Below are positions 6,261 to 26,782 of a stretch of DNA of 42,660 nucleotides, in pieces. The notes under the pieces were generated by a model, which searched no databases, was not told the DNA's origin, and worked only from the letters and a program-made list of their open reading frames with translations. The translations under genes and the position numbers were made by a program. Positions within the stretch are counted from its first letter, which is position 1; each line of letters starts with the position of its first letter. Source of the DNA: Candidatus Zhuqueibacterota bacterium (GTDB taxonomy: Bacteria > Zhuqueibacterota > QNDG01 > JABMRT01); NCBI GenBank assembly GCA_013202295.1, contig JABMRT010000288.1, forward strand, positions 1 through 42,660, in the 5' to 3' direction.

Positions 6261-7598
6261 TTAAGAAGGATTTAGAACGCCAATCAGATCGTACACATCA
6301 GCGTCTGTAATCTGCACAGGTACAATTTCTCCAATAGAACATTCTCCCTGGACCCAGACCGTTTGATCAATCTCGATCGCGTCGCCCCGGGTGCGCCCTG
6401 CATACATTTTCTGGGCAGGATCATACTCATCTATCAGCACCGGGAGGGTCTTGCCGATAAAAGCTTCATTAAGTTCGAGGGAGATTTCCTGCTGCGTTTG
6501 CATAATTTGATCGTAGCGAGCTTCTGCAATATTTTTTGGAGGAATGGGACCGAATTCAAATGCGGGCGTGCCCTCTTCGGGTGAATAGGTAAACGCACCC
6601 AGCCGCTCGAACCGCGTGGCCTGGATAAACTGAAGCAGCTCTTCAAACGCCTCATCCGTTTCGCCGGGAAAACCTACAATAAAAGCCGTTCTCAGGGTGA
6701 TATTTGGAATCTTCTCGCGCAGTTTGCGGATCAATCCTTCAATCTCCTCGCGCCGCATACCCCGTCCCATTTGCTTGAGAATGGGTGTGTGAATATGTTG
6801 AAGCGGCATGTCCAGGTAATTACAGATCTTCTCTTCTTCTAATATGATCTGAATCAAATCATCCTCGATATGCGATGGATGCGCATATAAAATACGAATC
6901 CATTCGATGCCATCAATTTGTACAAGGTCACGGAGGAGATCAGAAAGTCGGGTACCGTCATTAAAATCCGTGCCGTAAGCTGTGGTATCCTGCGCGATCA
7001 GGCTGAGTTCGCGTACGCCCTGATCCGCCAGTGCTTGTGCTTCATGAACCAAATCCACGATTGGACGACTTCGGTATTTCCCTTTGAACAGAGGAATAGC
7101 ACAAAATGAACATTGATGGCTGCACCCTTCTGCAATCTTAAGATACGCGGTGTGCGACGGCGTGGAAAGAACACGCGATCCAGGAGTGGCATCGGACAAA
7201 TCTTTTCTACGATGATTGAGTCTTGATCGGATCTGATCAAAAGCTTCTACACCGAAAAATCCATCCGCCTCGGGAATCTCTTGGGGAAGCTCCTCTTTAT
7301 ATCGTTCCGCCAGACAACCCCACACATAAATCTCGGGATTCTGATCTGTCTCTTTCAAACGCAATAAATCCAGAATCGCTTCGATGGATTCTTGTTTGGC
7401 TGATTCAATAAATCCGCATGTGTTCACAAGAATGATATCTGCTTCTTCAGGTTCGGGGCAAAGAAGAAATCCGTCATCGCGGAGTTGCCCCGCCAATACT
7501 TCCGAATCCACTTCGTTTTTCGGACATCCCAGCGTGACAAGCGCCACACGTCTTTGATGCGTTTTATTTGGATTTTTAGGTTGGATCAAATACCTCAA
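6261..7598 (-). CDS. rimO: Ribosomal protein uS12 methylthiotransferase RimO
   Basis: RimO is a radical-SAM enzyme that adds a methylthio group to the conserved aspartate of ribosomal protein S12. The 445-residue protein shows the N-terminal UPF0004 domain with three cluster cysteines (C25 in TLGCPKN, C61 in NTCGF, C95 in WGCLAE). The radical-SAM CxxxCxxC is at C159, C163 and C166 (GCSHQCSFCAIP), and a C-terminal TRAM-like region ends the protein. TLGCPKNEVDSE distinguishes RimO from MiaB. The start is a TTG at 7598 with AAGGAG about 12 nt upstream, a rather long spacing, so the exact start is uncertain. Confidence 0.94.
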   Translation of the reverse strand: MRYLIQPKNPNKTHQRRVALVTLGCPKNEVDSEVLAGQLRDDGFLLCPEPEEADIILVNTCGFIESAKQESIEAILDLLRLKETDQNPEIYVWGCLAERYKEELPQEIPEADGFFGVEAFDQIRSRLNHRRKDLSDATPGSRVLSTPSHTAYLKIAEGCSHQCSFCAIPLFKGKYRSRPIVDLVHEAQALADQGVRELSLIAQDTTAYGTDFNDGTRLSDLLRDLVQIDGIEWIRILYAHPSHIEDDLIQIILEEEKICNYLDMPLQHIHTPILKQMGRGMRREEIEGLIRKLREKIPNITLRTAFIVGFPGETDEAFEELLQFIQATRFERLGAFTYSPEEGTPAFEFGPIPPKNIAEARYDQIMQTQQEISLELNEAFIGKTLPVLIDEYDPAQKMYAGRTRGDAIEIDQTVWVQGECSIGEIVPVQITDADVYDLIGVLNPS

Positions 7599-7652
7599 AC
7601 AATTAAGAGTCTCCTTGAAAAAGCAATATCAATCTGTTGATTGACAGAAAAT

Positions 7653-8060
7653 TTACAAGACCAATACTGAATCTATTAAAACCGAATTATCCGGTTGATG
7701 AACAGTAATTAAAAGTGTGCCCTTATTCTGGGGCTTGAAATTATATTCTTTTCCTCGCAATTCACTGAGAGCCGTTGCGCATATATCATCATTTGTATGA
7801 AAGCCCCATAAAGTAAAATAAATTTGATGAGGTTCTGTATGCACTTCGAAATGATGAAATCCATAACACAAATCGGGACCGATGATTCCCCAAAATTTGA
7901 CAGATAAAGTGTCATTGAGATTGATTTCGCTTTCAACCTGGATGCTGTCAACTTGAATAACAAATTTTTCATCAGACGGAGAGTTTGGATCTTCCGATTT
8001 ACAAAAAAGAAAACTTAAAATTATCATAAGAATAAAAATTAAACATTTATACTTATACAT
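7653..8060 (-). CDS. Hypothetical exported protein, possible lipoprotein
   Basis: I do not recognise this 135-residue protein. It opens with a basic-hydrophobic signal sequence (residues 1-20) followed at once by Cys20 and a polar stretch SEDPNSPSDE, the look of a lipoprotein. However, the residues before Cys (FLF) are a poor lipobox. The rest is predicted beta-strand-rich and could be a single Ig-like fold. The gene is clearly more AT-rich than its neighbours: by eye, one 60-nt stretch near its start is only about 22% GC. It sits between ftsY (40 nt) and rimO (54 nt) and is on the same strand, but it looks like a late insertion into the operon. Confidence 0.6.
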   Translation of the reverse strand: MYKYKCLIFILMIILSFLFCKSEDPNSPSDEKFVIQVDSIQVESEINLNDTLSVKFWGIIGPDLCYGFHHFEVHTEPHQIYFTLWGFHTNDDICATALSELRGKEYNFKPQNKGTLLITVHQPDNSVLIDSVLVL

Positions 8061-13465: not shown

Positions 13466-14530
13466 TTACTGAATTACAATGGGATTGCTGTAAATCCAAC
13501 CCCTACGCTTACGAAACACTTCCACGCGGTACACTCCGGATTTGTCGGAGTGGAATTGTAATTCCTGTCCTTTGTCTTGCACAACAACCTGACCATCACA
13601 CAGAAGGCGAATCGTACCCGGCAGAGGTGTTTCAATTTCAAATTGGATATCTTTGGCCTTGTTAATCCGACTTCCCATTTCGAAATGCTTCTGTCCATCC
13701 GTGGCCTGGAAACGAAATCCCAGTCCATCGCCGAGTGAACTGTTCGTGATAAAGCAACGTCCCATTCGGAGTGCTTCATAGATCAGGGACTCGGACTCGC
13801 TGAACACCGCCTTTTCGCCTGAGTTGGAAAGAAGCGGTTTGGATGTCAACACGTGGGTATGGATGGATCGGAACTGGACTTTATAGGGATAAATCTCAAC
13901 CGGAAACAATCCAAACACTTTGATTTGAAACGCATGCACATCAATACCGCCGACACCCACCACACGGCGGAATCGATTGAGCCGATCCCAGCGTTCCAGT
14001 GTTTCCCAGACCGGAAAGCGGATTGAACGCAAAGGATGCAAAATACGCCATCCGATATTGCTACGTGTGACTCCCTCCATCCATTCGGAAAGCTGATTCC
14101 AGATCTCAATGGCATCGAAACCTTCCACATCCCAATCTGTCCAGGGATAAGGCGGATATGCTTCAGAGAAATTCCGCTTTTCGGCTGGATGCGCGATCAC
14201 ACCGAATCCGCCCTGATCCCGAACGCGGCGGACATACTCTGCCGCTTCCAGTCCATCGCCCACTTCCTGATCCAAACCGAATGCGAGATAATGATTCCGA
14301 TCATCCGGATCATTGATCTCATACCCGATCAGCACAAGCACTGGTCCGTACCAGCCTTCAAGACCCTGACGTTTCGGCTCAAGTGTGTTGTGATCGCTAA
14401 ACATCAGAAAGTCGAGTTCTTTATCCGCAGCAATCTTCGCGATTTCCGGGATAGGCAAAGAGCCATCCGAGAAATCCGAGTGCAGATGAATCGCGCCTAC
14501 AGATTCAAAATATAGAGTCGGTTCAGACAT
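13466..14530 (-). CDS. PHP-domain phosphoesterase family protein
   Basis: A PHP-fold protein of about 354 residues that probably hydrolyses a phosphoester. Metal-binding motifs are present: HLHSDFSDGS near residue 16, FSDHNT (about 48), an IAHPAEKR histidine (about 116) and GGIDVHAF (about 205). It is not a polymerase domain; a beta-rich C-terminal region follows the PHP part. I start it at the ATG at 14530, overlapping the upstream stop as TAATG, with GGAGTGGTGG upstream; a GTG at 14539 is possible. It lies 21 nt before purF. The substrate is unknown. Confidence 0.8.
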   Translation of the reverse strand: MSEPTLYFESVGAIHLHSDFSDGSLPIPEIAKIAADKELDFLMFSDHNTLEPKRQGLEGWYGPVLVLIGYEINDPDDRNHYLAFGLDQEVGDGLEAAEYVRRVRDQGGFGVIAHPAEKRNFSEAYPPYPWTDWDVEGFDAIEIWNQLSEWMEGVTRSNIGWRILHPLRSIRFPVWETLERWDRLNRFRRVVGVGGIDVHAFQIKVFGLFPVEIYPYKVQFRSIHTHVLTSKPLLSNSGEKAVFSESESLIYEALRMGRCFITNSSLGDGLGFRFQATDGQKHFEMGSRINKAKDIQFEIETPLPGTIRLLCDGQVVVQDKGQELQFHSDKSGVYRVEVFRKRRGWIYSNPIVIQ

Positions 14531-14901
14531 TACCACCACTCCAGAAGAAGGATTCCAAAACAGATGCCTGCCAGATCAGCAACCAGATCCTTCCAGCTAA
14601 ATAGACTGTACGGTTCCGGTTTTGACATGTCGCTCCATTCCTTGACCAGTCCCAGACCGAACGTCACGCCAGCGCCTGCGATTCTGCTATCAGACGCGTT
14701 CAATCCTTCATGAATATGAAATCGATACATCGTAGCTCCGGTCAGTATGAAACTCGCCAGAAAATGCTGGGCCTTGTCCGGGGCCAGCCATTGATCCTGC
14801 ATCGTTGAAACGGACTTTGAAATGGATGGAGTTTCTTCTGCGTGACACAGACAAGGTGCCATAAGCAGGGTAATTAAAAATATGAAACGATATTTTTTCA
14901 A
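14530..14901 (-). CDS. YfiM/DUF2279-like exported protein
   Basis: A 123-residue protein with a Sec signal peptide (residues 1-21, LCHA-E). The mature part resembles the YfiM/DUF2279 group: DKAQHFLASF near residue 42, then a glycine-rich membrane-like helix with GLGLVKEWSDM, and SWKDLVADLAGICFGILL at the end. The function of these proteins is not established; the conserved D-K-x-x-H and D-x-x-x-D-x-x-G residues suggest a membrane-embedded active site. The start is a TTG directly after the TAG of the HD gene, so translation is probably coupled. It overlaps the PHP gene by 1 nt. Confidence 0.65.
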   Translation of the reverse strand: MKKYRFIFLITLLMAPCLCHAEETPSISKSVSTMQDQWLAPDKAQHFLASFILTGATMYRFHIHEGLNASDSRIAGAGVTFGLGLVKEWSDMSKPEPYSLFSWKDLVADLAGICFGILLLEWW

Positions 14902-15450
14902 CTACAATCCGAGATCTTTATCAATGGACTGCATGGCTTTCAGCGATAACTCAATAAAATCATGCAGCGACAGGTTCATGGTTTCGCAACTCTGAATTTG
15001 TTCACGATTGGCGCCTGCTGCGAAACGTTTTTCTTTGTAGCGCCTCTCAATGAATTCGGTGTTTACGAATTTTAGTTTTTTAGAAGGATGCATCAACGCC
15101 GCCGCTACGATCAATCCTGTCACCGGATCGGCGGCATATAAGGCCTTATCCATTAAGGATTCTCTTTCCACATGACCCGGATGGCTCTTGATGGCCTGCA
15201 AGATCGCTTCAGGCACATCCTTGTCGGCGAGGATTTCAACAGTTATGAATCCGTGCTTGGAAAAATCTTTGACGGTTTTATCATAATCCAGATCATGGAG
15301 CAGGCCTGCCAGGCCCCAGACCTCTACATCTTCATGGAAATGTACGGCCAGCTCGCACATGACTGCTTCAGTCGCCAGCATGTGTTTTTGCAAATTTTTG
15401 TTCTTGATATGCTTCTGAACCAGATCAAGCGCTTCGTCTCGAGATATCAT
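14902..15450 (-). CDS. HD-domain (HDIG-like) hydrolase
   Basis: A 182-residue HD-domain protein. The motif residues are visible: H23 in KHMLATE, the HD pair in GLLHDLDYD (about 50-58), a histidine in SKHGF and the SHPGHVERESLMDKALYAADPVTG region with the distal aspartate. This subfamily is widespread as single-domain predicted phosphohydrolases without an assigned substrate. It lies 24 nt after the DUF5683 gene and abuts the next gene without a gap. No partner domain is present, so signalling roles such as cyclic-nucleotide hydrolysis are unsupported. Confidence 0.8.
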   Translation of the reverse strand: MISRDEALDLVQKHIKNKNLQKHMLATEAVMCELAVHFHEDVEVWGLAGLLHDLDYDKTVKDFSKHGFITVEILADKDVPEAILQAIKSHPGHVERESLMDKALYAADPVTGLIVAAALMHPSKKLKFVNTEFIERRYKEKRFAAGANREQIQSCETMNLSLHDFIELSLKAMQSIDKDLGL

Positions 15451-19674: not shown

Positions 19675-19776
19675 CCTTTAACTCCTTAGTAGATAGAATG
19701 GAATTCCAAAAGCTGCTTGCAATTTAATTTTGGATCTCCTAGCTTGTATCAATCTCAGTATCGCAGGAAAAAACTC

Positions 19777-20655
19777 ATGCAAACGCAATCTCAAATTCTT
19801 GTCGGCCCGGCCGGATGGCATTACAAGGATTGGTACGGTCCGTTTTATCCGGAAAAAGCAGGAAAAGATTTTAAAGAGCTGGATTATCTCGCCAATTATT
19901 TTGATACAGTGGAGATCAATTCCACGTTTTATCGTCCGGCCAATGGGTTTATGGGATCAGCCTGGGTGCGCAAAGTGGCGCACAATCCAAATTTCAAATT
20001 TACAGCCAAACTCTGGCAGCGTTTCACGCATGAGCGCCAGCCCTTCGGTAAGGATGAGGTCGAAACCTATAGGCAGGGCATTGATCCGTTGATGGAGGCC
20101 GGTAAACTTGGCGCCGTACTTTGTCAGTTTCCCTGGAGCTTTAAAAACAACGAGGGCAATCGGCATTGGCTCTCATCCATCTTTGAAAATTTTAAGGATT
20201 ATCCTCTGGTAATTGAAATCCGTCACGCGTCCTGGGACAATCCCGCATTTTATGAAGTGTTGGAAAAACGACAAGTCGGGATTGCTTGTATCGATCAGCC
20301 GGTCATTGGTCAATCCATCGCCTTCAAACCCGTGCGGACAGGGCCCATCGGATACGTGCGCATGCATGGGCGGAATTACAAATCCTGGTTCCCGCCAAAG
20401 AATCAGGAAAAGGTCGACGGCTCCGCCCGTTATGATTACTTGTATGATGATGACGAAATCGAGGAGATCACTGGCAATGTGCAACAGATCGCGGACAAAG
20501 CCCGTGAAACTTATGTGGTCCAGAATAATCATCCACGTGGGCAGGCCATTACAAACGCCATGCAAATCCGCGCCGCACTCGGTGAAGCCATCGAATCATT
20601 ACCGCCGGAACTTCTCGCCAGTTTTCCCCAACTCAAGAAAATCCTCACTAACTAA
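19777..20655 (+). CDS. DUF72 (YecE-like) protein
   Basis: A 292-residue DUF72 protein, a TIM-barrel-like family of unknown function present in many bacteria and archaea. Motifs are VGPAGWHYKDWYGPFYP near the start, YFDTVEINSTFYRPA (about 43-57), FTAKLWQRFTHER, LCQFPWSF, IEIRHASW and YVRMHGRN, then VQNNHPRGQA near the end. I start at the ATG at 19777, preceded by AGGA about 8 nt upstream; the open frame extends to 19717 but adds 20 non-family residues. It is the only plus-strand gene in the first 29.8 kb and is divergent from folK. Confidence 0.88.
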   Translation: MQTQSQILVGPAGWHYKDWYGPFYPEKAGKDFKELDYLANYFDTVEINSTFYRPANGFMGSAWVRKVAHNPNFKFTAKLWQRFTHERQPFGKDEVETYRQGIDPLMEAGKLGAVLCQFPWSFKNNEGNRHWLSSIFENFKDYPLVIEIRHASWDNPAFYEVLEKRQVGIACIDQPVIGQSIAFKPVRTGPIGYVRMHGRNYKSWFPPKNQEKVDGSARYDYLYDDDEIEEITGNVQQIADKARETYVVQNNHPRGQAITNAMQIRAALGEAIESLPPELLASFPQLKKILTN

Positions 20656-20990: not shown

Positions 20991-23900
20991 TCACCCTGCA
21001 ATTCGTTTATAATTTTGGATCTTCTTTCTTTGCTTCTCCCGCGCATCCAAAAACGCCATATCGGTCACGTGCAGGGACAGCGCGCCTAAATCATCTTCGA
21101 TGGTACCGTAAAGGATATACGGCCGCGACTGTGTCCAATGGCGGCAGAAGCGGTGGAACGCGTCCGGGAAAAAAATCGTCTCGTACAACGCGGTCGTATC
21201 CTCGAAACTAATGAAGGACATCGGCTCCTCGGTCTTGGTATACACCAGCTTGTTGGTCACCCACCATCCAATCATCGCGACCTTTTTCCCGATATGATTG
21301 GACATCTGATTGGCCGGCACGTAATTCAGCCCGCGCAATCCCTCGCGGTACAATTCAAGCGGATGCACGCTGATGGGAAATCCCAGCACTTCGACTTCGT
21401 GAAGGAGGAGGGTATGAAAATCATATCGCCCCAGTTCCGGCACGCGCACGGCCTCTTCCTGAAACAGATTCAGGGACGTCTGCACGGACTCCTTTTTCGG
21501 TCGCCGTCCGGCCATGACCTGCCACAACAGTTCGGCCCGGCTCTTGCCCTGCGAAATCCGGTCAAAGCATCCGGCCTTGATCAGGATGCGTAAATCCGAA
21601 GGATCAATCGCGATCCGGCGCTGCAACTCATCAAGCGAGCAAAAAGGACCATGTGTTTCACGATTCTGGAGAATCGCATCCAGCGCCGAGGCTTTCAATC
21701 CTTTCAATTGCATCAGCCCGATGCGTATGGATTGGCCGCATCCGATGTACGGTTCACGGCTCCCGTTGATGTCCGGCGGCAGAAGGACCAGCCCCATGCG
21801 CCGGGACTCGGTCAGATACGCGAACGTGGAATAATAGCCGCCCCGATTCGAGATCACGGCAGCCATGAACTCAGCCGGATAATGGCGCCGCAGCCACGCG
21901 GATTTGAACGACACCAGGGCATAGGATGCCGAGTGCGGCTTGCAAAAGCTGTATCCCGAAAAGCTGAGAATCATCTCCCAGATATTTTGGATGGTTTCTG
22001 GAAAAACGCCCCTGGCTCGCGCGCCCGCTGCGAACCGTTTTCTGTACGCCTTGAGTTTTTGTCCGCCCCGCTTCTTGGACAGCGACTTGCGCAGCCCGTC
22101 CCCTTCCTCTGCGGAAAATCCGGCCAGGGCCATGGCCACGCGCGTCACGTCCTCCTGATACACCATGATGCCGTAGGTGTCTTTGAGGATGTCGCCGAGC
22201 ACTGGATGCAGCGGCTCCCACGGTTCGCCCCGGAGCCGTCGAACATAGGCATTGATATACGTATTCGCCGCCGGCCGGATGATCGAGCTGTGAATCACGA
22301 GATGCTCGTAATCGCCCGTGCCCGCTTTTTTCTGAAGCTGCCGCGTGGCCGGGGACTCCACATAAAAAACGCCGAGCGTATCGCCCTTGCAGATCAAATC
22401 CTGCGTGTCCGGATCGTCGATCGGATTCAAATCGGCGTACTGGATCACCTCGCCCGTGTTTTTATGAATCGCGGCCAGTGCGTCCCGGATCACAGCAAGC
22501 GACCGGTTGCCTAACAAATCGATTTTGATCAGGCCGCTGTCCTCGGTCTGATCCTTTTCCCATTGCACAATTTGGACGCCCTTGGGCGCAATCTCAACCG
22601 GTACATGGTTGGACAATTTATCCGGCACAATCACCACGCCCCCGCAATGTACGGACAGGTACCGGAACGCGCCCTGCATCCGCTGTGCCTGGCGCAGAAT
22701 CTCGGGCCACGGCGGATTGAGTGTCATGCCCTTGAACAGGGGATGGCTAGCGATCACATCTTCAATAGACACCGTGCCCCACGACCAGAGATGGCTGAGC
22801 CGATCCGTAACCAGTTTAATTTCATTTTCAGGAAGCCCGTGTACTTTAGCCACTTCCCGCACCGCCGCCCGCAACCGAAAGCCCACATGATTGGCCACCA
22901 TTGCGGAGCGTTCCGGCCCGTACTTCTCGAATACATAATCGAGGATGTCATCCCGTTCGTCCCAGGCAAAATCGACGTCAATATCGGGAGGATCTATGCG
23001 TCCCGGATTCAGGAAGCGCTCGAAGAACAAATTGTGCCGCAAAGGATCGACATGGGTAATTCCGAGCGTGTAGCTCACAATACTCGCGGCTGCCGATCCC
23101 CGGCCGCAGGTACGCGGCGACTGGCGTACAATGTCTTCGACCATGAGAAAAACAGAGCCGAATCCCTTGTCGCCGATGATCTGGAGTTCGTGGTCCAACC
23201 GTTTTTGGACTTCAGGAGTGACCGATCCATACCGCCGGATCGCACCCCGCTCGCATTTTTTTCGGAGCGTATCGATTACGGTACTGGAGTCCATCCCTTC
23301 AAATCCCGCGTCAAGCGTCGATTGGCAAGGATGGCGCCATTGGCACGTCTCAGCAATCCGGATGGTGTTTTCCAATGCGTCGACCACATTGGGAAACGCA
23401 TCCCGCATTTGAGACGGATTTTTCAACCACGCTGAGGAAGGCGCGGTTTCGCGTTCCGGCAGGCGCGAGAGCTTGGCATTCAAATCAATGGCGCGCATCA
23501 GCTGGTGCAATTCATAATCATCCGGATCGAGAAAATGCACCGCGTTTGTCGCCACGGGCGGGATGGTATTCTCCCGAGCGAATTGGAGGACCGGCCGCCA
23601 GTTTCGTCCACCGATCAATTCGGCGTACACATGAGGACGGCCCTTCATTGTGTTCAGAACGGTACGCGAATCGGAAAGCACTGCCAGTCCGGTAGAGTAA
23701 TTTTGGAGTTCCGAGGAGAGGACAAACTCCTCCGCCGTGTGCCGCAACGTCAGCATCCGGCAGAGATTCGCGTACCCCTCGCTGGTTTGGACAAGCAGCA
23801 CGGCCCGCTCTTCCCCGGTCGAAATCTCCGCCCCGAAAATCGGCCGCACGCCCGTCTCCTCCGCGATCTGCTGAAAAAAGATCAAGCCGTACAGTCCGTT

Positions 23901-24026
23901 CGTCTCGGTCACGGTCAGCGTGTCCATGCCGCGATTGAGGACAGCTTTGCATAGCGTCTCAAGCTTGGCCGTGCCCCGCATCATCGAATATTGCGAATGC
24001 GTGTGTAGATGAATAAATGATTCCAT
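20991..24026 (-). CDS. dnaE2: Error-prone DNA polymerase III alpha subunit (DnaE2/ImuC)
   Basis: A 1,011-residue C-family polymerase of the DnaE2/ImuC type, the catalytic part of the ImuB-ImuC SOS mutasome. The N-terminal PHP domain is degenerate: HLHTHSQYS is kept, but the usual TDH is TET (near residue 40). The palm has CGRGSAAASIVSYTLG, the catalytic aspartates in PDIDVDFAWDERDD, and the third in IKIDLLGNRSL, so polymerase activity is expected. The finger and HhH regions and an OB-fold follow. A possible beta-clamp motif QTSLNLF lies in the C-terminal third. Length and pairing with a Y-family gene separate it from replicative DnaE. Base composition looks GC-rich against the flanks. The short leader contains a palindrome. 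Confidence 0.92.
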   Translation of the reverse strand: MESFIHLHTHSQYSMMRGTAKLETLCKAVLNRGMDTLTVTETNGLYGLIFFQQIAEETGVRPIFGAEISTGEERAVLLVQTSEGYANLCRMLTLRHTAEEFVLSSELQNYSTGLAVLSDSRTVLNTMKGRPHVYAELIGGRNWRPVLQFARENTIPPVATNAVHFLDPDDYELHQLMRAIDLNAKLSRLPERETAPSSAWLKNPSQMRDAFPNVVDALENTIRIAETCQWRHPCQSTLDAGFEGMDSSTVIDTLRKKCERGAIRRYGSVTPEVQKRLDHELQIIGDKGFGSVFLMVEDIVRQSPRTCGRGSAAASIVSYTLGITHVDPLRHNLFFERFLNPGRIDPPDIDVDFAWDERDDILDYVFEKYGPERSAMVANHVGFRLRAAVREVAKVHGLPENEIKLVTDRLSHLWSWGTVSIEDVIASHPLFKGMTLNPPWPEILRQAQRMQGAFRYLSVHCGGVVIVPDKLSNHVPVEIAPKGVQIVQWEKDQTEDSGLIKIDLLGNRSLAVIRDALAAIHKNTGEVIQYADLNPIDDPDTQDLICKGDTLGVFYVESPATRQLQKKAGTGDYEHLVIHSSIIRPAANTYINAYVRRLRGEPWEPLHPVLGDILKDTYGIMVYQEDVTRVAMALAGFSAEEGDGLRKSLSKKRGGQKLKAYRKRFAAGARARGVFPETIQNIWEMILSFSGYSFCKPHSASYALVSFKSAWLRRHYPAEFMAAVISNRGGYYSTFAYLTESRRMGLVLLPPDINGSREPYIGCGQSIRIGLMQLKGLKASALDAILQNRETHGPFCSLDELQRRIAIDPSDLRILIKAGCFDRISQGKSRAELLWQVMAGRRPKKESVQTSLNLFQEEAVRVPELGRYDFHTLLLHEVEVLGFPISVHPLELYREGLRGLNYVPANQMSNHIGKKVAMIGWWVTNKLVYTKTEEPMSFISFEDTTALYETIFFPDAFHRFCRHWTQSRPYILYGTIEDDLGALSLHVTDMAFLDAREKQRKKIQNYKRIAG

Positions 24027-24051
24027 ATGTCATCCGTTTGGACCATTAATC

Positions 24052-24077
24052 TAATCCACGGTTTTAACCGTGGATTA
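24052..24077. repeat. Perfect palindrome in the dnaE2 leader
   Basis: A 26-nt inverted repeat with 12-nt arms (TAATCCACGGTT and its complement) around TT. It lies 25 nt upstream of the dnaE2 start, so it will be in the mRNA leader as a strong hairpin. It shares the CCACGGTTTTAACCGTGG core with the other palindromes around the transposase. Confidence 0.85.
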
Positions 24078-24207
24078 GGGATATACAATCGGGGGGATAA
24101 CCGCCCACGGTTTCAACCGTGGGTCTGGGGTGTTCATTGGGATTGTCAACCAACCCATCTAATCCAACCCATGGCTTTAGCCGTGGGAATCGATTCATCG
24201 GTTTCCC
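24078..24207. repeat. Duplicated REP-type element, copy A (after imuB)
   Basis: About 130 bp that closely match 25494-25614. It contains palindromes at 24104-24123 (CCCACGGTTTCAACCGTGGG) and 24168-24187 (CCCATGGCTTTAGCCGTGGG), a shared linker with GTCAACCAA and CATCTAATCCAACCCA, and the end GAATCGATTCATCGGTTTCC. Copy A has about 10 extra nt after the first palindrome. It begins right after the dnaE2-leader palindrome and ends 4 nt from the imuB stop codon, filling the whole imuB-dnaE2 gap. Confidence 0.88.
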
Positions 24208-24211
24208 TGCC

Positions 24212-25378
24212 TCAATGCATCACCCTTCCCGTCGCAATGGCCGTCTCCCCGAATCTGACCCGGATCGCATCCATGGCGCGTACGAGATTGCGCGCTTTCT
24301 CATCCTGCGGAGCGACCGGGAACAGCTCGATCTGATCCGGCGCGGCGAACAAATCCGTAAAAGTCAAACTGATATACCGGATTCGTTGCCGGCGATAATC
24401 CGTCTTCGTGAAAAGAGGTTTGAGGATTCGGAAAAGCACAGGGTCCACTGGCATCGGGCCCTCAAGCCGCTTGCGTCGCGTGGCGTCCATGCCGTCTGAA
24501 TAGCGGATGTGCAGCCACACCGTTTTCGAAACCGCGCTCTTCTCGCGCATCCGGCGGCAGGCCCGCTCTATTAAAGCATAAAGGATGCCCAGCAGGATCG
24601 CGTCATCATTTGTGTCTTCATCAAGGGTGTGCTCTTCGAGAATGAAGGATTTGGTGCTCGGCGGCAGCACCGGTCTTGGATCCACGCCCAGCGCCTGACG
24701 GTGCAACACACCCCCGAACTTGCCGAACACGGATGCAAGCTGGGCCACGGAAATCCCCGCCAGTTGCCCTGCTGTGCGAATATTAAATTCAGCCAGAAGC
24801 GACCGCTCAGTTTTGGATTGCACCACCGGCAGCATGCGCACGCGAAGCGGTGCCAGAAACGAAGCCTCACTGCCCTGCGGCACAGCATACAGATCACCCC
24901 GGGACACCACCACCTGCGCCGCCACACTGCTGACGAGTTTATTGGAGGCCATGCCCAGCGTACCCGACAACCGAACTGAATCGACCACCTCCTTGCGAAG
25001 ATAATAGGCCGCGTCCTGCATGCTGCCGTACAGCCGCGAGGTGCCGCTCATGTCCACAAAAAAACGGCCCCATCCTCCCGGTTCGACCAGCGGAGAGTAA
25101 CCGCATAAAATCTTTGAAACCGCGCGGGAAGCGCGTTCGTACAACCCCGCATCCGGAGGCAGAATGACCAGCCGTCGACACCGTTTCAACGCCAGAGTCA
25201 GGGGCTGATGCTCGAACACCCCTTCGGCGCGAGCTTCAGGAGAGGCCGCGTAAATCAATGATCGGGGAGAATGGCGCGAGCAGACCACGACGGGTCTGGC
25301 GCGGAGAGAAGAATCACGAAGCCGCTCAACCGCCACCGGAAAGGCGTCGACCCGAAGATGTAAAACATGGCGGTGCAT
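24212..25378 (-). CDS. imuB: Catalytically inactive Y-family polymerase, ImuB type
   Basis: A 388-residue Y-family fold aligned throughout with DinB (finger and palm, YAASPEARAEGV, VEP...VDMSGTSRLYG, FGKFGGVLHRQALGVD). All three metal-binding acids of active DinB are lost. The HVDMD aspartate is Arg9 in HLRVD, and the SLDEA pair Asp-Glu is Gly104-Arg105 in GGWGRFF. Loss of the acids is a hallmark of ImuB, the non-catalytic hub that brings ImuC/DnaE2 to the sliding clamp. A clamp-binding motif QIELF is present at 349-353, and the protein ends about 35 residues later. It lacks the long C-terminal extension of some ImuBs. No clear Shine-Dalgarno is seen before the ATG at 25378. Confidence 0.87.
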   Translation of the reverse strand: MHRHVLHLRVDAFPVAVERLRDSSLRARPVVVCSRHSPRSLIYAASPEARAEGVFEHQPLTLALKRCRRLVILPPDAGLYERASRAVSKILCGYSPLVEPGGWGRFFVDMSGTSRLYGSMQDAAYYLRKEVVDSVRLSGTLGMASNKLVSSVAAQVVVSRGDLYAVPQGSEASFLAPLRVRMLPVVQSKTERSLLAEFNIRTAGQLAGISVAQLASVFGKFGGVLHRQALGVDPRPVLPPSTKSFILEEHTLDEDTNDDAILLGILYALIERACRRMREKSAVSKTVWLHIRYSDGMDATRRKRLEGPMPVDPVLFRILKPLFTKTDYRRQRIRYISLTFTDLFAAPDQIELFPVAPQDEKARNLVRAMDAIRVRFGETAIATGRVMH

Positions 25379-25437
25379 AATGTTTGCTCATAATAAAACC
25401 ATCAAAATATTTTCACCACAATCAACGGACAAATCCA

Positions 25438-25490
25438 CCCACAACTAGCCCACGACTAGCCCACGACTAGCCCACGACTTTAGTCGTGGG
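25438..25490. repeat. Tandem palindrome half-sites ending in a full palindrome
   Basis: Three 11-nt units CCCACRACTAG (25438-25448, 25449-25459, 25460-25470) run straight into the palindrome CCCACGACTTTAGTCGTGGG (25471-25490). Each unit is the left arm of that palindrome plus TAG. The sequence differs from the CCCACGGTT type by the inner bases, so it is a sister palindrome. Confidence 0.85.
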
Positions 25491-25493
25491 TTT

Positions 25494-25614
25494 GGGATAT
25501 GCAACCGGGAGGATAACCGCCCACGGTTTTAACCGTGGGTCCATTGGGATCGTCAACCAATCCATCTAATCCAACCCACGGTTTCAACCGTGGGAATCGA
25601 TTCATCGGTTTCCC
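25494..25614. repeat. Duplicated REP-type element, copy B (after transposase gene)
   Basis: Near-copy of 24078-24207, with palindromes CCCACGGTTTTAACCGTGGG (25520-25539) and CCCACGGTTTCAACCGTGGG (25575-25594). The last 13 nt run into the transposase gene and include its stop codon and the three codons before it, so copy A carries a fragment of the transposase 3' end. Confidence 0.88.
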
Positions 25615-26042
25615 GCGTCCAGTCCATATCGCGCGAAAAGCCGTTCACACTCCTCATTAAAACTGCGCTTCCGATGATGCGTCTCTTGTTTGCGGATGTA
25701 CTCTTCAACCTTCATAACCTGTGAGGCGCTCACGGACAAAGCGCAATATCCAACCTGCCAGGCGAATTTAATCTGGAGGAAATCCTGCTGATTGATCCAG
25801 TGGGAGGATTCACCTTTCACTAGCTGCATAATCTCTGCAATGGATTTCTCAGGATTCAAAACAAAAAACGCGTGCACATGCTCCGCCATGCCATTGACAA
25901 TTCGGGGTGCACAGCCGGATTCATGGAAACGTTCTTCTATGTGAAGAAAAACCTGATCACGAAACGCAGTCTTTAAAAGGGGCTGCCGGTCCTTGGTGCT
26001 CCAGATGGCATGAATATAGATCTTGGATAATGAATGCGCCAT
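25602..26042 (-). CDS. REP-associated tyrosine transposase (IS200-like, Y1_Tnp)
   Basis: A 146-residue Y1 HUH transposase of the IS200/RAYT group. The HUH motif is His55-Val56-His57 (AEHVHAFF), and the likely nucleophile is Tyr115 in VEEYIRKQETHHRK. KIYIHAIWSTKDR at the start, KGESSHWIN and FAWQVGYCALSVS are typical. All catalytic parts are intact. AAGGA lies about 7 nt before the ATG. Inverted repeats of the CCCACGG type lie on both sides (25520-25594 and 26096-26115), as expected of RAYT genes that mobilise or maintain REP palindromes. It lies between lexA and imuB, on their strand. Confidence 0.88.
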   Translation of the reverse strand: MAHSLSKIYIHAIWSTKDRQPLLKTAFRDQVFLHIEERFHESGCAPRIVNGMAEHVHAFFVLNPEKSIAEIMQLVKGESSHWINQQDFLQIKFAWQVGYCALSVSASQVMKVEEYIRKQETHHRKRSFNEECERLFARYGLDAGNR

Positions 26043-26054
26043 GCTTTTCCTTCC

Positions 26055-26076
26055 GGAATCCGTTAAAACGGATTCC
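26055..26076. repeat. Palindrome just upstream of the transposase start
   Basis: GGAATCCG and CGGATTCC flank TTAAAA: perfect 8-nt arms, 12 nt before the transposase ATG. In mRNA it would fold directly next to the ribosome-binding site. Its arms do not share the CCCACGG sequence, but the layout and AT spacer are alike. Confidence 0.75.
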
Positions 26077-26095
26077 CTTCCTTTTCATTCAGGGG

Positions 26096-26115
26096 CCCAC
26101 GGTTAAAACCGTGGG
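26096..26115. repeat. CCCACGG-type palindrome between lexA and the transposase gene
   Basis: CCCACGGTTAAAACCGTGGG, the upstream member of the palindrome family that brackets the transposase. On the minus strand it is preceded by TTAG, similar to the CTAG before the palindrome at 25471. Confidence 0.85.
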
Positions 26116-26148
26116 CTAACCTAATCCGTCAAATCCGCGTTCTATCCC

Positions 26149-26751
26149 CTACAACCCATATTGTCGCATGAGACCCACCACCACTCCGCGAATTTCGAAT
26201 GTACCGTTCTGAATCAACATCGGCTGCATCGTCGGATTGGCCGGACGCAGTTCCACACCCTTGCCCCGGACATAATACTTTTTCACCGTGGCCTCGCCCT
26301 CAACCAGCGCCACCACGGTCTGCCCGTTTTCAGCCGTGGCTTGCCGCCGCACCACAATCGTATCGCCGTCATGAATCCCCTCGTCGATCATGGAACTGCC
26401 CTTCACCTTGAGCGCGAAATACTCGCCGGAGCCTAACATCGCCTCAGGCACATCCACAGTCTCCTGTCCCTCAATGGGTTCAATGGGATTGCCCGCCGCC
26501 ACCGTGCCGGCCAGACGCAGCATCACGGATCGCCCACCGTGCTCGACGAGCCGGATGGCCCGCGACAGATGCTTGCCCGTGCGCTGAATATACCCCTTTT
26601 TCTCAAGCTGATCGAGATGCTTCTGCACAGATTGAAAGGATTGAAACCCGAAATGATGCCGGATCTCATCATACGACGGCGCCACACCGCGCGCCTGGAT
26701 GAAGTCACGGAGATAGTGATACATCCGCTGTTGTTTCTCTGTCAGTGTCAT
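26149..26751 (-). CDS. lexA: LexA repressor
   Basis: LexA represses SOS genes and cleaves itself when RecA filaments form. The 200-residue protein has a winged-helix DNA-binding domain (LTEKQQRMYHYLRDFI, APSYDEIRHHFGF, KHLDQLEKKGYIQR). The scissile bond is Ala86-Gly87 in GTVAAGNP, the nucleophile Ser120 in VKGSSMIDEGI, and the general base Lys157 in EATVKKYY. All catalytic residues are present, so autocleavage should work. The recognition helix differs from the E. coli type, which predicts a different operator. It heads the lexA-transposase-imuB-dnaE2 series and probably controls it. Confidence 0.95.
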   Translation of the reverse strand: MTLTEKQQRMYHYLRDFIQARGVAPSYDEIRHHFGFQSFQSVQKHLDQLEKKGYIQRTGKHLSRAIRLVEHGGRSVMLRLAGTVAAGNPIEPIEGQETVDVPEAMLGSGEYFALKVKGSSMIDEGIHDGDTIVVRRQATAENGQTVVALVEGEATVKKYYVRGKGVELRPANPTMQPMLIQNGTFEIRGVVVGLMRQYGL

Positions 26752-26760
26752 GATCGAAGA

Positions 26761-26782
26761 TAGGTATAAATTAGGTATAAAT
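26761..26782. promoter_or_regulatory. Candidate LexA operator: two tandem 11-bp direct repeats
   Basis: TAGGTATAAAT occurs twice in immediate tandem (26761-26771 and 26772-26782), 9 nt upstream of the lexA start codon. The period is about one DNA turn, so two protein subunits could bind on the same face. I found no further copy near the other genes of the cassette. Assignment to LexA is inference from position, since LexA usually represses its own gene. Confidence 0.45.

Follow-up and report, generated by a model that had tools for sequence, protein, structure and literature searches.

Does the SOS mutasome cassette of a Candidatus Zhuqueibacterota bacterium lack imuA because a transposase displaced this gene, or is it a cassette of a kind that has none? 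The cassette lies in a window of 42,660 nucleotides (nt), the whole stretch of DNA that we analysed (contig JABMRT010000288.1 of assembly GCA_013202295.1, here contig C283), within an assembly of 5.15 Mb that comprises 303 contigs and is 95.65% complete. The original prediction had placed lexA, a transposase, imuB and dnaE2 collinearly on one strand, and both the coordinates of the open reading frames (ORFs) and the family models agree with it: the minus strand carries, in this order, lexA (26149-26751; SOS repressor of 200 amino acids; TIGR00498 at 190.7 bits, above cut-off, with Peptidase_S24 and LexA_DNA_bind), an intact IS200-like Y1 transposase of 146 amino acids (25602-26042), an inactive Y-family polymerase (iPolY; 24212-25378; 388 amino acids; IMS and IMS_C) and an error-prone-type DnaE (20991-24026; 1011 amino acids; DNA_pol3_alpha, with matches to PF07733, PF17657, PF02811 and PF14579). 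The predicted absence of imuA from the window is likewise confirmed by gene content and by searches for ImuA. We consider it very probable that the locus is an SOS-inducible translesion-synthesis operon of the DnaE2B-iPolY-RecA type, a family name that we infer from its composition, with the transposase as a passenger in spacer DNA.

The two polymerase-like proteins are not those of a canonical cassette. In the Y-family protein, which had been labelled imuB, R9, G104 and R105 replace the catalytic residues D8, D103 and E104 of Escherichia coli DinB in the alignment; the triad is kept in none of 72 cassette orthologues, 71 of which have glycine at the D103 position. The protein is closer to DinB than to canonical ImuB, and the ImuB-C domain (PF20114), for which the Caulobacter control was positive, was found nowhere in the genome. 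The 388-residue protein has two features at its end, namely, a clamp motif of the form QxxLF, present near the end of 61 of the 72 orthologues and reading QIELF here, and a stretch of 28 final residues that resembles the N-terminal oligomerisation segment of RecA in a profile-profile comparison (82.7%, E 9.5e-6), compared with 0.4% for an internal iPolY block used as a control. The adjacent DnaE retains its catalytic aspartate triad (aligned D401, D403 and D555) and falls into a 24-row, DnaE2B-like clade (support 100/99), apart from the DnaE1 of the same genome (C187), E. coli DnaE1 and three canonical DnaE2s. The Geobacteraceae DnaEs belong to this clade, and a Streptomyces plasmid pair (L123) sits away from it on long branches. 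Thus, the labels imuB and dnaE2 do not stand as assignments to the canonical families, given the lack of ImuB-C and the separate clades.

The search for imuA was extended to the whole genome. Model NF033429 reached only RecA (C125) and RadA (C201), although we judged this model too narrow, as its cut-off was passed by no control genome. For this reason, we built a profile from three annotated ImuAs of plasmid-borne cassettes (Agrobacterium, Burkholderia and Croceicoccus), which scores 305-409 bits on its own three source proteins, as expected and not as an independent control. Its sole match in this genome is the recA gene; it matches none of about 100 cassette loci of this type, and across a kinship-based sample of 99 whole genomes its scores stay at or below 36 bits, nearly always with RecA-sized frames. 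Hence, imuA is undetected in this genome, 95.7% complete, and in 98 others of the sample.

The same layout extends far beyond this genome. The same-order relatives G005, G003, G011 and G008 carry lexA-iPolY-dnaE with gaps of 56-220 nt between lexA and iPolY, and in these gaps both imuA and a transposase are missing. A multi-phylum iPolY alignment (A1) proved too divergent to scan the collection with, and a DnaE alignment (A2) took its place; applied to genome contigs, the latter yielded 80 loci from Acidobacteriota, KSB1, Neomarinimicrobiota, Calditrichota, Nitrospira, Geobacteraceae, other Desulfobacterota and Gemmatimonadota, the complete genome of Nitrospira moscoviensis among them. Among 86 iPolY-containing loci, a set in which a few entries are the same contig fetched twice (e.g., L042 and L124), iPolY is preceded by lexA and followed by dnaE, all on one strand, in 50 loci that span about eight phyla. 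None of these 50 complete loci contains imuA, and only two have a transposase between the cassette genes. Since the relatives and these loci are ImuA-free even where they have no transposase, the absence of imuA here is no consequence of the transposase: the ImuA-free layout is the rule throughout this lineage, not a broken canonical cassette. Two options offered by the original prediction, an ImuA-free mutasome of the lineage and a transposase that replaced only spacer DNA, are therefore upheld by the relatives with their short gaps, by the 50 cassettes and by profiles that reach nothing beyond RecA in the genomes of the relatives. Two iPolY-like genes, one complete and the other partial, share a stretch of about 6 kb in genome G049 of the same phylum (L058:8814-9962 and 14519-15244). 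In Desulfosarcina ovata, a lexA-DUF72-Y-family-dnaE cassette (L119, NZ_AP021877.1 56109-67075) is borne by a plasmid that was typed as mobilizable, so the cassette module may travel between bacteria.

ImuA-free variants of the mutasome were reported earlier (PMC6511836, 2019), and a putative DnaE2B-iPolY-RecA mutasome has been described that combines a dead polymerase of the gbDinB2 type, wide phyletic spread and a genome without imuA and imuB, and in which RecA was proposed as the stand-in for ImuA (PMC12926913, 2026). Our cassette shares with this module the dead Y-family protein with clamp and RecA N-terminus-like motifs, the second active DnaE, the lack of imuA and imuB in the genome and of ImuB-C, and the wide spread that includes Geobacteraceae, but differs in having lexA in front, a transposase in a spacer and a recurrent DUF72 neighbour. 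With the canonical lexA-imuA-imuB-dnaE2 cassette, it has in common the SOS setting and a dead Y-family protein beside a second DnaE, whereas imuA and ImuB-C are missing and both proteins belong to different clades. The Streptomyces scDinB2-DnaE2B pair (PMC6511836, PMC12926913) is similar in uniting an inactive Y-family protein with a DnaE2 without ImuA or ImuB-C, but its iPolY is of a different group, and the Streptomyces plasmid pair L123 is the distant one in our tree. By contrast with the DnaE2X-iPolY-ImuBC system of the Kyrpidia type, no standalone ImuB-C (PF20114) was found in the genome.

How such a cassette might be controlled is suggested by a direct repeat with an 11-nt period, TATACCT-N4-TATACCTAT, directly upstream of lexA (26760-26779, minus strand). 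Each of the eight lexA genes read in the order is preceded by it with 0-1 mismatches, the window copy being the only perfect one in its genome, and only 1 of 2000 shuffles reaches two or fewer mismatches; the repeat is conserved in front of lexA in the window, L042-L047 and L243. In the two spacers of the window, and in front of iPolY, the pattern was not found, and this candidate operator suggests a single LexA-controlled promoter for the whole operon. A genome-wide search allowing up to three mismatches gave fewer matches than its reversed control, and so we claim no wider LexA regulon. One near copy with two mismatches (L093, G000:C69:8701-8720) lies directly upstream of a 283-amino-acid ORF that resembles, by eye, a protein of the dCTP-deaminase/dUTPase type and is a possible second SOS gene.

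Under the scenario that we favour, DNA damage would activate RecA, and LexA would cleave itself and leave the one operator before lexA, so that a common transcript would cover lexA, iPolY, dnaE and the transposase gene inserted among them. The iPolY would bind the sliding clamp via QIELF and RecA itself via the C-terminal segment that resembles the RecA N-terminus; if iPolY binds RecA directly, as we propose, no ImuA is needed. In this putative complex, iPolY would recruit DnaE, which is active and probably of low fidelity, to the lesion. The IS200-like element, for its part, would have entered the lexA-iPolY spacer without displacing a gene and is probably not involved in mutagenesis.

Several points weigh against this interpretation. 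The similarity to the RecA N-terminus is not significant for the window iPolY sequence in a single-profile search, and, single sequences being insufficient, it is carried by the family profile. The canonical DnaE2s in our tree number three, all from Pseudomonadota plasmids, and the assignment to the DnaE2B-iPolY-RecA family is one of composition. At 95.7% completeness, an imuA hidden in a gap is conceivable for this genome alone. Finally, the spacers between transposase and iPolY and between iPolY and dnaE have strong predicted RNA folds (z -5.65 and -4.73, respectively), which make co-transcription uncertain and some uncoupling possible. Taken further, these folds, together with a lexA-iPolY spacer of about 770 nt and the lack of an operator in front of iPolY, could mean that the insertion cut iPolY and dnaE off from the lexA promoter, leaving a cassette that is decaying or separately controlled. 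We regard this as unlikely: no terminator-like site was reported on the transcribed strand of the two spacers, and both genes are intact and normally conserved, with 64% (iPolY) and 70% (DnaE) identity to their counterparts in G007.

The features of the transposase identify it as a palindrome-flanked IS200-like insertion in spacer DNA. The protein (PF01797 at 84.8 bits) has, by eye, the HxH motif and a downstream tyrosine, and passes the IS200/IS605 NCBIfam model (NF033573; 68.8 bits, cut-off 55) but not the REP_Tyr_transposase model (NF047646; 21.4 bits, cut-off 80). One paralogue, 48% identical, is present elsewhere in the genome. Six palindromes of the form CCCACGGTTNNAACCGTGGG, with up to three mismatches, surround the gene and occupy the next spacer, against none expected from shuffles, so the palindromes noted in the original prediction are real; at up to two mismatches, there are five copies in the window and only one elsewhere in the genome. 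One palindrome (26096-26115), on the 5' side of the gene, marks the left end of the element, and a three-palindrome module on the 3' side (25467-25614; repeat families D1-D3) marks its right end. This module recurs as a unit of about 157 nt in the iPolY-dnaE spacer (24051-24207; 84-91% identity), accompanied by about 16 nt of the transposase 3' end, and this second copy can be read as the likely remnant of another insertion. Many related transposases elsewhere are flanked by palindromes of similar shape, both arms varying in step. In its HxH and tyrosine residues and its flanking palindromes, the element matches both the IS200/IS605 and the REP-associated (RAYT) Y1 transposases (PMC6006769); it differs from the latter in failing the REP model and in having few palindromes, not high-copy ones. 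Accordingly, of the predicted intact REP-associated tyrosine transposase, the intact Y1 enzyme is retained and the REP association is not.

Other cassettes have received insertions as well. Genome G004 has a related element downstream of iPolY; in G007, a contig ends with lexA and a transposase after it, with iPolY starting near the end of another contig; and in L142, from Neomarinimicrobiota, a transposase lies between lexA and iPolY. Palindromes flank the transposases of all three cassettes. That a single transposase was inherited vertically within the order, which we also considered, is unsupported, as the cassette-borne copies do not group as one clade. Besides that of the window, four transposases lie near a cassette, against about 0.12 expected (about 93 matches in 99 genomes; P ~8e-6), in a test that was framed post hoc and counts one degenerate copy (G062) and one located 2.2 kb away (G076). 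In several other, unrelated bacteria, the spacers of the cassette are occupied by small genes of mobile type, namely, PDDEXK_3, DUF559, 23S_rRNA_IVP, GIY-YIG and a borderline Y1_Tnp (L149), at L045:2305-2724, L050:8219-8746, L149:5561-5950 and 7405-8004, L172:5504-5953 and L191:1784-2143. As these genes are unrelated to one another and occupy the same spacers, the simplest account is that of a permissive insertion site, which is what the cassette spacers look like. A more specific possibility, which we consider doubtful, is that palindrome-flanked single-strand transposases have landed repeatedly in the lexA-iPolY spacer, in more than one phylum, and come under damage induction there; if true, this would couple transposase movement to the peak of single-stranded DNA and mutagenic synthesis. 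Similarly improbable is that the transposase was recruited as an SOS-induced part of the cassette: the excess near cassettes, with the caveats attached to that count, and the co-directionality with the cassette of all copies located by strand would fit, but most cassettes have no transposase, the cassette-borne copies do not form a single clade, and the unrelated genes in the same spacers point to a permissive site.

The remaining option of the original prediction, a once-canonical lexA-imuA-imuB-dnaE2 cassette from which the transposase and its palindromes displaced imuA, is refuted. Although the transposase occupies exactly the place of imuA in canonical cassettes, that canonical order was seen in no relative; most relatives have neither imuA nor a transposase, a few having acquired transposases independently; imuA is missing from all 50 complete cassettes; and both the Y-family protein and the DnaE belong to a non-canonical type not known as an ImuA partner.

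Apparently, the recurrent insertions, the DUF72 neighbour of this cassette and the direct-repeat LexA-operator candidate are unreported so far. The same ImuA-free layout is found in Acidobacteriota, Nitrospirota, Thermodesulfobacteriota, Gemmatimonadota and several candidate phyla, and the cultured carriers of iPolY-dnaE, Nitrospira moscoviensis and Geomonas, make the question of whether RecA substitutes for ImuA directly testable.

The DUF72 gene of the window (19717-20655, plus strand; PF01904 at 181 bits) is the sole match to this family in its genome and is convergent with dnaE, as it is in G003. Within 6 kb of iPolY, DUF72 occurs in 17 of the 86 loci, in several phyla, and its position varies, some copies lying between lexA and iPolY and others ahead of iPolY or beyond dnaE; the loci besides the window include L044, L049, L053, L119, L126, L128, L148, L162, L180, L199, L200, L237 and L241, and three weak matches in Nitrospirota loci were confirmed by Pfam. 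DUF72 proteins have been noted near polB2 mutasomes and are structurally similar to UV-damage endonuclease (PMC11791011), and they go unmentioned in the description of the DnaE2B-iPolY-RecA module (PMC12926913). The recurrence of this neighbour points to a possible additional partner in the damage response. Candidates for conserved neighbours other than DUF72 were mostly generic or Nitrospira-only clusters, with many shadow ORFs, and were set aside. In Nitrospira loci without a detected lexA (L203, L166, L171, L182, L183, L186, L190 and L194), iPolY has on its upstream side an ORF that by eye is SSB-like and that apparently runs in the opposite direction.

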